The notes under the pieces were generated by a model. The model searched no databases, was not told the origin of the DNA, and saw only the letters and a program-made list of their open reading frames with translations. A stretch of DNA of 54,071 nucleotides, taken from an uncultured Ruminococcus sp. GTDB lineage: Bacteria > Bacillota > Clostridia > Oscillospirales > Acutalibacteraceae. Numbering within the stretch: position 1 is the first letter of the stretch; every line of letters begins with the position of its first letter. The stretch is taken from positions 1-54,071 of the forward strand of contig CACYIC010000012.1 of NCBI GenBank assembly GCA_902774325.1. Reading direction: 5' to 3'. The translations under genes were made by a program, and so were the position numbers. This document shows, one piece after another, positions 12,204-15,360 of the stretch.

Positions 12204-13925
12204 ATGGATATTAAAGAGCTTTACAAATCATGGTGTGAGAACGCGACCGAGGACGCCGATCTGATCGCCGAGCTTGAGAGCATCAAGGATGATGAAAAAG
12301 CGATCTATGACCGCTTCTATACGACTCTCAACTTCGGAACAGCGGGTCTGAGAGGAGTTATCGGCGCGGGCACAAACAGAATGAACATCTACGTCGTTCG
12401 CAGAGCGACCCAGGGCATGGCTGATTACGTGCGCTCAAAATACAGCGGAGAGCTTTCCGTTGCCATTTCGCACGACAGCCGCATCAAGGCGGACCTGTTC
12501 ATGATCGAGGCGGCAAAGGTACTCGCCGCTAACGGGATCAAGGCGTATATAACCAAGGAGCTTGAGCCTACTCCCGTGCTTTCCTATCTCGTGCGCTATT
12601 TCGGCTGTCAGGCAGGCATCATGGTGACCGCAAGCCACAATCCCGCGAAATACAACGGCTACAAGCCCTACGGCGAGGACGGTTGCCAGATGACCGACAA
12701 GGCGGCTTCCGACGTTTACAACGAAATCATCAAGCTCGATATGTTCAGGGACGTAAAGACCATGGACTTCGACGAGGCTGTTTCAAAGGGACTCATTGAA
12801 TACGTCGACGAGAGCGTTTATGATTCCTACCTTGAAAAGGTGCTTGAGCAGCAGGTAAACCCCGGGATCTGCAAGGACTCCGGACTCAAGGTCGTCTATA
12901 CTCCTCTCAACGGCACGGGCAACAAGCTTGTAAGACGCGCTCTTGACAGGATCGGCGTTGAAAACGTCACCATCGTTAAGGAGCAAGAGCTTCCCGACGG
13001 AAATTTCCCGACCTGCCCCTACCCCAATCCCGAGCTCAGGGAGGCTATGCAGAAGGGACTTGATCTCTGCGCTGAGGTTGAGCCCGATCTTCTTCTCGCT
13101 ACCGATCCCGACGCCGACAGAGTCGGCATCGCCGTCAGGGACTACGACGGCAGCTACCGCATGATCACCGGCAACGAAGCCGGAGTTATGCTCACCAACT
13201 ATATCCTCTCGTGCAAAAAGGCGGCAGGCACTCTGCCCGAGAATCCGATCGTTGTAAAAACGATCGTTACCACTAAGCTCATAAATAAGCTCTGTGAAAA
13301 ATACGGCTGCGAGCTCAAAAACGTCCTCACGGGCTTCAAGTACATCGGAGAGGTCATCCTCGGGCTTGAGCAGAAGGGCGAAGAAAACAGATATCTCTTC
13401 GGCTTTGAGGAGAGCTGCGGCTATCTTTCGGGAACCTACGTCAGAGATAAGGACGCTCCCGTAGCCTCGATGCTTATCTGCGAAATGGCGGCGTATTACA
13501 AAAAGCAGAACATCACCCTCGCGAAGCTGATCGACGGGCTTTACGACGAATTCGGCTATTACCTCAACAAGACCTTCTCGTTTGAATTTGAAGGCGCTGA
13601 GGGCATGGAAACGATGAAGAAGCTCATGTCTGATACGCGTGAAAAAATCCCCGCGGAGGTCGGCGGATATAAGGTGATCAAGGTCAGCGATTACCTCACC
13701 AAAAAGGAAACCGATCTTATCACGAAAGATACTGTCGATATCACCCTTCCCACCTCAAACGTGATCGCGCTCCACCTTGAGCAGGACAACGCGGTAATAA
13801 TCCGTCCCAGCGGCACTGAGCCCAAGATCAAGCTCTACGTTACCGCCGTCGGAAAGACAAAGGACGACGCCGCGAAGATCTGCGACAAGCTTGTAGCATC
13901 GGCAAAGAAGCAGTTAGGCTTGTAA
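12204..13925 (+). CDS. pgcA: Phosphoglucomutase/phosphomannomutase (alpha-PGM family)
   Basis: 573 residues, close to Bacillus PgcA. It interconverts glucose 1- and 6-phosphate, feeding UDP-glucose for surface glycans. Visible motifs are TASHNP with the phospho-Ser (about residue 143), the metal loop DPDADRVG, the sugar-binding GFEESCGYL, and the phosphate-binding RPSGTEPKIK near the end. The ATG at 12204 is preceded by GGGGG at about 11 bases; an ATG 18 bases upstream is an alternative. Its place after the GT2 and GT-C genes fits supply of sugar precursors, though a terminator separates them. Confidence 0.93.
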   Translation: MDIKELYKSWCENATEDADLIAELESIKDDEKAIYDRFYTTLNFGTAGLRGVIGAGTNRMNIYVVRRATQGMADYVRSKYSGELSVAISHDSRIKADLFMIEAAKVLAANGIKAYITKELEPTPVLSYLVRYFGCQAGIMVTASHNPAKYNGYKPYGEDGCQMTDKAASDVYNEIIKLDMFRDVKTMDFDEAVSKGLIEYVDESVYDSYLEKVLEQQVNPGICKDSGLKVVYTPLNGTGNKLVRRALDRIGVENVTIVKEQELPDGNFPTCPYPNPELREAMQKGLDLCAEVEPDLLLATDPDADRVGIAVRDYDGSYRMITGNEAGVMLTNYILSCKKAAGTLPENPIVVKTIVTTKLINKLCEKYGCELKNVLTGFKYIGEVILGLEQKGEENRYLFGFEESCGYLSGTYVRDKDAPVASMLICEMAAYYKKQNITLAKLIDGLYDEFGYYLNKTFSFEFEGAEGMETMKKLMSDTREKIPAEVGGYKVIKVSDYLTKKETDLITKDTVDITLPTSNVIALHLEQDNAVIIRPSGTEPKIKLYVTAVGKTKDDAAKICDKLVASAKKQLGL

Positions 13926-13949
13926 TCGAAACAATAATAATCACTATCC

Positions 13950-13979
13950 GGGCTGTCGCGCCGAGCGGCAGCCCTTTTG
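13950..13979 (+). terminator. Intrinsic terminator after phosphoglucomutase
   Basis: Stem GGGCTGTCGC with GCGGCAGCCC (one G-U), 5-base loop, then TTTT. Confidence 0.8.
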
Positions 13980-14019
13980 CTATACTCGTTTTGCTATGCT
14001 CAAAGTTTGCTATGCTCGA
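13975..14019. repeat. Three imperfect tandem repeats of about 15 bases
   Basis: TTTTGCTATACTCG, TTTTGCTATGCTCAAAG and TTTGCTATGCTCG follow one another, starting in the T-run of the phosphoglucomutase terminator. No known role. Confidence 0.55.
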
Positions 14020-14147
14020 AGGCGGGAACGAATAATTTTTGCAAAAAACTTTTTGCAATGAAACAATGGCTCTCTTTGAAAAGAAACCTTTTTGAAATGA
14101 TACCATTGGGCAAATAGTATTGACTAAGAAACATTTTTCAGCAGACG

Positions 14148-14175
14148 CAAAAAGAGGTGACGCGAAGTCACCTCT
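14148..14175 (-). terminator. Intrinsic terminator of the 630-nt minus-strand transcript
   Basis: On the minus strand AGAGGTGAC pairs perfectly with GTCACCTCT around TTCGC, followed by TTTTT. No long ORF lies upstream, so it must end the short-ORF/ncRNA transcript. Confidence 0.85.
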
Positions 14176-14646
14176 TAATTATTTAGAAGTAGATCCCTAT
14201 CCTGCCGGATCGGGTAGAAAAGCTTAACTGTCCTTGGGACTCATCTCCAAATAACTTATTGTCCGTCATTATAACGAGTATTACATTGGACCGTTCTCCT
14301 GTCTTAGAATAAAGCCGTTATAAGAATCAACCATACATGGGAGTAATCTCCAATCTTTAGAATAACTCGTCAGCGAAAGCTGAATAATTCAATTTCTCAT
14401 TGGAACGTACCAAAAATAGTTCGGATTTTTACTTCTATTCATATTCAATTGTAATCAGGTTCCTCAAAAGCCCGAATACCGAAAGCTTAATAATCAGATC
14501 AAACCGATAAGGCTAAAGCAGATATATTAAAAAATGAAAGGTGTAATTTACAAAATAGGATTTCTGCTTTTCACTAACGCCCGACAGTCCGAAGTATAAA
14601 TTATATTTGTTTTATTAACAATGAAAATATCGGCTGTGGCGACCTA

Positions 14647-14751
14647 TCAATTATCCCTAACCTCTGCCCCGATCATCGGGACTGAAACATTGGGCGGGAG
14701 GCTCCGCAGGTAATCTTTAATCTGTACGAAATAGAATCTCTGTACTTTCAT
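14647..14751 (-). CDS. 34-residue peptide, unknown function
   Basis: ATG at 14751 is preceded by AAAGGAGG at 8-base spacing, about as strong a translation signal as the window holds, and lies under the consensus promoter at 14785-14813. The peptide starts MKVQRFYFVQIKDYLRSLPP and ends IGAEVRDN. It has an amphipathic basic/aromatic N-terminal helix, then a Pro-rich middle; there is no signal peptide or Cys. I do not recognise a family. It could be a real microprotein, a regulatory leader peptide for the RNA downstream, or a chance ORF within a structured RNA. Confidence 0.6.
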   Translation of the reverse strand: MKVQRFYFVQIKDYLRSLPPNVSVPMIGAEVRDN

Positions 14752-14784
14752 ATTGAAAACCTCCTTTATCTTTTCTTTGACTAT

Positions 14785-14813
14785 ATTATACGATAAAGAT
14801 TCAACATTGTCAA
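14785..14813 (-). promoter_or_regulatory. Consensus sigma-A promoter of the 630-nt transcript
   Basis: Minus-strand TTGACA, exactly 17 bases, TATAAT: a perfect match to both hexamers. Transcription should begin near 14778. Confidence 0.85.
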
Positions 14814-14857
14814 GTATTTTATTAAAAATATTTATCTTTTTATTTTTTAAAAACCTC

Positions 14858-14886
14858 TTGAAGAATTAAAATTATTGTGATATAAT
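14858..14886 (+). promoter_or_regulatory. Plus-strand promoter with extended -10
   Basis: TTGAAG, 17 bases, TATAAT preceded by TGA (extended -10). The predicted start near 14893 falls directly in front of a terminator hairpin. It is divergent from the 630-nt transcript promoter, 44 bases away. Confidence 0.6.
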
Positions 14887-14895
14887 GTAAAAGTT

Positions 14896-14923
14896 GAGCG
14901 GTCTATATGACTGCTCTTTTTTT
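14896..14923 (+). terminator. Intrinsic terminator directly after a promoter
   Basis: GAGCGGTC pairs with GACTGCTC (one G-U) around TATAT, then TTTTTTT. It begins within a few bases of the predicted transcription start, so a transcript of only about 30 nt would be released. Confidence 0.7.
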
Positions 14924-15033
14924 GCTTCGGAATAACCGAACTATATATTTTATTGGTTTTCGGCTCAAAACGCGCCTGTCGGCAACACAGTTTGAAAGCG
15001 AAAAACGTCTGTTGCGGCGATAATGCTTCTTTC

Positions 15034-15067
15034 AAAAAAATTGAGGACTGCGAAAATCACAGCCCTC
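15034..15067 (-). terminator. Intrinsic terminator after the XRE regulator
   Basis: Minus strand GAGGGCTG...CAGTCCTC stem (one mismatch) followed by AATTTTTTT. Confidence 0.75.
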
Positions 15068-15111
15068 AGAATCCAAAAACAGTTTTTTGGAGGAAAAGAT
15101 ATTAATAAGAA

Positions 15112-15360
15112 TTATTTCTCTCTTCCGAGAAGATAATCGACGGAAACCTCAAGAATATCTGCCAGAGCGACAAGCTCGACATCCGTTACGAATCTGATCT
15201 GACCCTCGAGCTTGGAAAGTCCCGACGCGTTCATATCCACGCCGTTGACCTGAAGCTGGGCAAGCAGCTCCTTCTGCTTCATGCCCTTTTGCTTCCTCAC
15301 AAGCTCGACCCGGTTTCCTACCAGATTTCTATCTCCCAGTTCCTGTTTGCGCAGTCTCAT
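15112..15360 (-). CDS. XRE-family helix-turn-helix regulator
   Basis: 82 residues, essentially one Cro/CI-type domain: LVGNRVELVRKQKGMKQKEL forms helices 1-2, a recognition helix lies around NASGLSKLEGQ, and the typical SVDYLLGREK closes the fold. TAGGAGAG precedes the ATG. It has its own promoter (15423-15451) and terminator. It sits next to the orphan 630-nt transcript and the short plus-strand promoter, so regulation of either is possible but unproven. Confidence 0.88.
   Translation of the reverse strand: MRLRKQELGDRNLVGNRVELVRKQKGMKQKELLAQLQVNGVDMNASGLSKLEGQIRFVTDVELVALADILEVSVDYLLGREK

Follow-up and report, generated by a model that had tools for sequence, protein, structure and literature searches.

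6S RNA, a core regulator, imitates the template on which a central machine works, and sponge RNAs of the CsrB/RsmZ type carry repeated GGA-containing sites, similar to ribosome-binding sites (RBSs), in one RNA. The MS2 operator is a hairpin that holds the Shine–Dalgarno (SD) sequence directly before the AUG, and dual-function RNAs of the RNAIII/SR1 type join one small open reading frame (ORF) to a functional RNA; we know of no start-stop module array in the latter. The minigenes of phage lambda bar and bacterial start-stop upstream ORFs (uORFs), with an AUG, zero to two sense codons and a stop, reportedly occur singly rather than in tandem. Start-stop 5′-uAUGs are single minigenes or uORFs in the excerpted portion of one report (PMC4965119), candidate RNAs with uORFs are treated in an extract of another (PMC8632094), and a third bears on minigenes through the titles in its reference list (PMC8012679). 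OLE RNA contains a mimic of an SD/anti-SD duplex and binds ribosomal protein bS21, according to the available part of its description (PMC12054373).

Here we describe a unit on the minus strand of the window, by which we mean the whole 54,071-nucleotide stretch of DNA from an uncultured Ruminococcus sp. that was analysed. The unit recalls OLE RNA (about 600 nt, from Bacillota and linked to translation), but the same partial text names no array of start-stop modules for OLE (PMC12054373), and the unit has no OLE match at E ≤ 10. It shares repeated RBS-like sites with CsrB/RsmZ, whereas here an AUG and an in-frame stop follow most sites, and it shares one small ORF plus an RNA part with RNAIII/SR1. 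Its AUGs, each mostly followed by zero to two sense codons and a stop, are those of bar minigenes and uORFs; in contrast to these, several modules stand in tandem within a dedicated, terminated unit, and their second codons are unconserved. With 6S RNA the likeness would lie in mimicry for a central machine and in being neighbors in several other genera, although 6S RNA is a separate gene and the array itself has no RF00013 match. We read this as an undescribed class of RNA, in which a leader ORF is apparently followed by ribosome-binding start-stop modules in tandem, and our main reading, at a probability of roughly 0.4, is that it mimics an mRNA and thereby engages or parks ribosomes as they initiate.

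Among known RNA classes we found none that consists of start-stop modules for ribosome binding set in tandem, and no such array is described in the titles or abstract openings of the open-licence literature searched. The first-pass annotation had seen no match to a known RNA family, and indeed no Rfam family matches the unit at the gathering score in a search of the whole window; for the arrays of relatives, too, no family was found, a few weak matches lying below the gathering score. ROOL, OLE and GOLLD, whose likeness it had suggested, are not relatives of the unit, and neither is raiA: their models gave no match at E ≤ 10 over 13900–15110.

A minus-strand unit with a leader ORF

By its signals, this is an isolated transcription unit with a conserved small ORF and a conserved RNA tail. 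Reading and scanning place its parts, from 14813 down to 14152, in the order promoter, SD, 34-codon ORF, module array and terminator (Table 1).

Table 1. Features of the unit in the window; units are the 80 loci retained for comparison
Feature	Position	Strand	Remark
−35 box TTGACA	14808..14813	−	Present in 80/80 units, window counted in
−10 box TATAAT, spacer 17	14785..14790	−	Whole promoter 12/12 in 75/80 units
Shine–Dalgarno AAAGGAGG of leader ORF	14760..14767	−	By reading
Leader ORF, 34 aa, MKVQRFYFVQIKDYLRSLPPN + variable tail VSVPMIGAEVRDN	14647..14751	−	pN/pS 0.20 over 11 codons ending in PPN
Small hairpin TTGTTAATAAAACAA (AUGUUNUNAACAU-like in relatives)	14607..14621	−	By eye only
ACAATTGAATAT element (ACAATTTAATAT in many relatives)	14441..14452	−	By eye only
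Module 1: GGTACGTTCC-A-ATG AGA AAT TGA (M-R-N-stop)	14389..14411	−	
Spacer hairpin CAGC-UUUC-GCUG; loop differs in several relatives	14371..14382	−	By eye only
Module 2: GGAGATTACTCC-C-ATG TAT GGT TGA (M-Y-G-stop)	14327..14351	−	
Module 3: GGAGAACGGTCC-A-ATG TAA (start-stop)	14281..14299	−	
Module 4, AUG-less: GGAGATGAGTCC-C-AAG GAC AGT TAA; same-frame ATG within loop	14224..14248	−	
Intrinsic terminator AAGAGGTGACTTCGCGTCACCTCTT, then TTTG	14152..14176	−	Accepted by reading

The perfect TTGACA-N17-TATAAT promoter, the 34-codon ORF with its SD and the perfect terminator that the first-pass annotation had placed on this strand were all recovered. The promoter of the window scores 12/12, and a perfect promoter (spacer 16–18, either strand) arose by chance in 5/4000 first-order Markov simulations of the 1.2-kb gap; the conservation of TTGACA and of the full promoter across the units is partly expected, because the query for the first loci took in the promoter. 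A terminator scanner gave the stem 14176–14152 for the plus strand only, and it is absent from the minus-strand list because two of its five T residues sit within the stem. We accept the minus-strand terminator on our own reading and on a scripted search, which detected terminator-like hairpins downstream in 67 of the 80 units, window among them; these 67 have estimated transcript lengths of 333–883 nt. That the tail is highly structured is not shown by folding energy, because the single-sequence value of the unit is ordinary (z −1.25; 3/20 shuffles equally good).

The unit's sole full match in its own genome is itself, with three more matches of 20–25 bases. Lack of conservation in related genomes, which had been named as the result that would sink the idea, is on the sequence side not what we see: a 21-column peptide profile matches 81 of the 161 genus genomes at 83 places with E ≤ 4.4e-7, the next match having E 1.4e-3 (a hand count from the table). 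A DNA search gave some match in 68/161 genus genomes, own included (E ≤ 0.001), several weak ones covering the promoter region only. In the named genome collection, a 33-base pattern had 37 matches, to Ruminococcus, Ruminococcaceae, Clostridia or Clostridiales MAGs, with three named just 'bacterium'. Reading 92 loci for the peptide motif yielded 80 units, many of them closely related, kinship being allowed for in thinned counts only; the 12 left out were ten without the motif (L074 cut by a contig end, the others short matches), L171, which the peptide profile had matched, and L210. The last, the sole viral-contig match of the peptide pattern, is a stretch without an array that reads as coding, and a phage origin was rejected, with only short matches covering 3–7% of the query.

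The leader ORF encodes [ILM]RSLPPN in the window (L001) and in all 29 loci L005–L033 (30/30), which were fetched by DNA and not by peptide; more distant leaders are IKDxKRS[LF]PPN-like, often with the stop directly after N. Comparing synonymous with non-synonymous change, as had been proposed, gave a pN/pS of 0.20 for the 11 codons ending in PPN, with synonymous change in excess, and codons at conserved peptide sites vary synonymously among representatives; the value of 0.06–0.07 for RSLPPN alone is circular, the units having been chosen by RSLPPN. This substitution pattern argues that the leader peptide of the window is real, with a core ending in RSLPPN. It has no Pfam match at E ≤ 1 and no match in the PDB, and the string RSLPPN occurs in no paper in a full-text search of open-licence papers. 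By inspection the peptide is basic and polar, not the hydrophobic membrane peptide of type I toxins. In the excerpted part of one E. coli study, PPN appears only among pausing PPX sequences (PMC4140641). The Arg codon before SLPPN is CGG in 13/14 representatives, which creates a module-like CGGAG..CC..CCAAT(G) (14706–14688, minus strand, in the window), and the end of the leader ORF may itself be a module.

Start-stop modules behind the leader

The GGA-containing loops that the first-pass annotation had seen in the tail exist, but they are better described as modules of the form GG-n-CC-N-AUG, mostly with an in-frame stop 0–2 codons past the AUG; the window has three, and a fourth that is AUG-less (Table 1). 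At least one copy of GG-n-CC-N-[AG]TG lies downstream of the peptide in 79/80 units (one copy in 5 units, two in 20, three in 37, four in 10 and five to seven in 7), at a median spacing of 55 nt (quartiles 52–60). An in-frame stop within two codons follows 164 of 231 module ATGs versus 98 of the 373 remaining ATGs in these RNAs, leaving 67/231 module ATGs without one. When the set was thinned to 14 diverse units, the near stop was present at 30/39 module ATGs versus 22/95 others (Fisher p 1e-8), and at 11/39 and 0/39 in the other two frames; column shuffling of the thinned set gave 22.5 ± 2.1, the highest of 5000 shuffles equalling the observed 30. Conserved promoter, leader peptide, module array and in-frame stops can all be read directly in the DNA.

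With an SD, a start codon and an in-frame stop within three codons, the modules have the makeup of start-stop minigenes; typical ORFs are ATG TAA, ATG TTC TAG, ATG CGC TAG, ATG AGA AGT TAA and ATG TAC AGT TAA. Stops interchange among TAA, TAG and TGA and starts between ATG and GTG, an exchange that speaks for a start codon. The frame is often preserved: an alignment of 23 units of the shorter type shows ATGTAATATTTAA becoming ATGTACATTTAA or ATGTGCATTTGA with one base lost, so that loss of ATGTAA goes with a one-base gap putting a later stop in frame; GTG replaces ATG in five of these units, and L167, in which the near stop of the second module is lost, is an exception. Second codons differ widely at their first two positions (F, I, R, C, Y, G, H, N, D); early termination, and not a peptide product, therefore seems to be what is kept. 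The second codon of one-codon modules mostly ends in C, and because of this an RNA motif CUA[AG] may contribute part of the near-stop signal.

The AUG-NNN-stop layout and the minigene literature (titles in the reference list of PMC8012679) also invite comparison with minigene toxicity, in which abortive translation as in phage lambda bar would sequester tRNA through peptidyl-tRNA drop-off. We hold this to be highly improbable for the array: the second codon is unconserved, and 48 modules consist of ATG or GTG followed directly by a stop and would use no elongator tRNA.

AUG-less rows number 38 in the genus and 21 elsewhere, found with a pattern that itself requires GG..CC, and 18 of the 38 genus rows keep a stop in that frame. 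The last module of long-type units (14248–14224 in the window) is GGnnUGAGUCC-N-AAG-nACAGUUAAG-like, with AUG absent from its usual place; mostly its loop holds an NUG that shares the frame, and the type recurs in other genera (L215, L233, L248).

Pairing with the 16S tail was also compared with that of ordinary genes. The predicted duplex averages −11.6 kcal/mol over 286 modules versus −9.6 over 48 SD gene starts of the window, a comparison that is partly circular because GG and CC are imposed by the search patterns; randomising the NCC costs 2.6, shuffling the loop 0.7. Predicted pairing at least as strong as that of ordinary gene starts fits real ribosome binding. The GG could instead be the 5′ side of a 3-bp stem with the CC, and such a GG...CC hairpin may hide the SD. 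The third pair of GGN..N′CC is Watson–Crick in 133/204 genus modules (shuffled 103 ± 6) and in 40/82 others (31 ± 4); this covariation is suggestive and we do not claim it, and the hairpin is not proven, because an unpaired control deviates as much as the stem pair (64 versus 35.5 ± 4.0).

These hairpin counts bear on the main rival, which we think unlikely though by no means negligible. It holds that GG-loop-CC-AUG is the site of a putative translational repressor, titrated by an array of mimics of its RBS targets in the manner of CsrB with another protein, and that the stops guard against run-through. Such a sponge would suit the multi-copy, evenly spaced modules, the variants without AUG and the excess of Watson–Crick third pairs, and an SD-holding hairpin before an AUG resembles the MS2 operator. 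Against it stand the equally deviant control, the ATG–GTG exchange and the genomes themselves: GAGG..WCC-N-ATG occurs 25 times in the own genome versus 17 for the reversed pattern, without clear excess, and a search for a regulon by motif at its gene starts turned up none that stood out. A sponge for CsrA itself was rejected, as CsrA (PF02599) is over the cut-off in 0/161 genus genomes, with three weak matches below it at E ≤ 0.001, in a search that was positive in 3/14 control genomes, E. coli and B. subtilis among them. The only match of a Csr-type model is CsrC in L218 (455–494), below the gathering score (26.5 of 61 bits) and outside the array.

Arrays beyond the peptide and the genus

We built a sequence model of two neighboring modules (R1) and a second model (R2), both of which take in letters past the AUG and are thereby biased toward matches with such tails. 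R1 matched 144/161 genus genomes (E ≤ 0.5) and 207/398 family genomes (E ≤ 0.1), mostly weakly, and these matches are not counted; it did find clustered matches in other genera of the family. On inspection, 21 of 43 loci from other genera have arrays, with GAGGUAnnGUCC-A-AUG-NNC-UAA and similar: 19 with clustered modules and two identified by eye (L223, L237). Twenty of the other 22 lack a cluster, and L236 and L244, whose clusters lie inside long reading frames, were omitted; their inclusion would bring in five starts, all lacking a near stop. In these other genera, 41/48 module starts have a near stop versus 6/21 other ATGs.

Four loci of the same genus, in genomes without a peptide match, carry another type of array, with a near stop at 12/12 AUG modules and at 1/14 AUG-less rows (two of them doubtful as modules). 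In a same-genus genome, L259 (minus strand, about 1300–1860) repeats two AUG modules and one AUG-less module three times in tandem, about 175 nt apart.

Further out, R2 matched 22/98 order genomes (E ≤ 0.01), own and one same-family genome included, and we found arrays in eight genomes drawn from three other families of that order, with no RSLPPN seen by eye in the array stretches. Near stops follow 14/14 module starts in L288, L290 (whose third module starts with GTG), L292, L295 and L302, and only 6/18 module-like starts in L301, L303 and L304, which belong to a single genus of another family; clusters in L293 and on the plus strand of L302 were set aside as coding-like. In a phylum sample of 59 genomes, the best R2 match outside the own genome had E 0.006, which gives no support there.

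Because such arrays occur elsewhere without the RSLPPN peptide, the class, as far as sequence can define it, is defined by the array and not by that peptide. Of the peptide-plus-RNA locus envisaged in the first-pass annotation, the conserved small ORF and the RNA tail thus hold; the tail in this genus, however, is chiefly an array of start-stop mini-ORFs, and the class is not tied to the peptide. The same findings weigh on the idea that this is a small-protein mRNA, with the RSLPPN peptide as product and the tail as a long 3′ UTR. Although the low pN/pS and the peptide's presence in every one of the DNA-fetched loci would follow from it, we give it little credence: other genera have arrays although the peptide profile detects nothing there (best match beyond the genus among 398 family genomes, only E 0.002), the four peptide-lacking loci of the genus have them too, and the mini-ORF stops bear the mark of selection in their own right.

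By reading, outgroup RNAs begin with different leader ORFs, M[ED]xEPxQT-like in several. They may also have a structured 5′ domain: both-side changes occur in 27/67 predicted pairs and 59/469 cells are non-pairing (seven rows, one nearly empty), for a structure predicted from, and tested on, the same small alignment. The modules might then be ribosome pads for RNA stability or transcription–translation coupling, the real job lying in the leader peptide or in such a 5′ domain. Candidate ribosome sites evenly spaced along the tail would serve this purpose, but pads need neither a start codon nor a stop, which leaves the AUG–stop coupling unexplained, and arrays are retained across genera whose leaders differ; we consider this account quite unlikely.

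Within the genus, where flanks of up to about 1.5 kb were read, the unit has an HTH gene as neighbor in 19/30 loci, phosphoglucomutase in 15/30 and both in 10/30 (window included). In other genera, 12/35 scanned loci have a 6S RNA no more than about 1.1 kb from the array (L212, L214, L218–L223, L237, L241, L242 and L292), eight matches being above the gathering score and four below it at a looser threshold, and in 5/5 loci tested (L212, L219, L223, L237, L257) the array has a divergent neighbor of the DUF1292 family. In the own genome 6S RNA is not beside the array; it lies at C63:397-585, with no array in the 2.1 kb there. In other genera the array's proximity to 6S RNA is a hint of a core role.

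Two side observations concern genes of the own genome. An 82-aa protein at window 15112–15360 (minus strand) has weak HTH matches below Pfam cut-offs and is 97.6–100% identical in 18 related genus loci, where phosphoglucomutase is 69–81% and RpiB 78–84% identical; this HTH-like protein is probably under unusually strong constraint. A module-like RBS, GGAGGTGTTCC-G-ATG, lies at the gene start at window 19001 (minus strand), whose long ORF is formate–tetrahydrofolate ligase-like by reading, and similar ones occur at glycogen-synthase-like and pyruvate-oxidoreductase-like starts elsewhere in the genome, also named by reading; such starts are not clearly more numerous than expected by chance.

Proposed action on ribosomes

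The mRNA-mimic reading involves steps that we infer: that the unit is transcribed, that ribosomes occupy its RNA and are parked there, and that the leader plays its part. The near-consensus promoter would yield a dual RNA, a transcript with one leader ORF followed by the module array. The modules resemble complete initiation sites (SD, spacing and AUG) yet mostly meet a stop within 0–2 codons; they would act as competitors for 30S subunits and initiator tRNA, and any 70S ribosome assembled on them would terminate at once, so that ribosomes might be engaged, parked or idly cycled with almost no peptide made. The leader ORF here has ..RSLPPN, with a motif of the PPX pause type, at or close to its end, and could signal the state of translation or retain a ribosome close to the 5′ end.

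By analogy, an extension that we advance with considerable doubt is that the arrays form an order-wide class acting on ribosomes as 6S RNA acts on RNA polymerase: a string of empty messages might park or idle ribosomes, with the leader peptide as a sensor by which the activity of the RNA is set.

What looks to be the case is that a strongly promoted intergenic stretch is set to make an RNA with one short conserved peptide and serial ribosome landing sites. If ribosomes do occupy the modules, translation capacity in rumen and gut bacteria would be under direct control by an RNA, and 6S RNA, which mimics a promoter, would have a counterpart that mimics a message.
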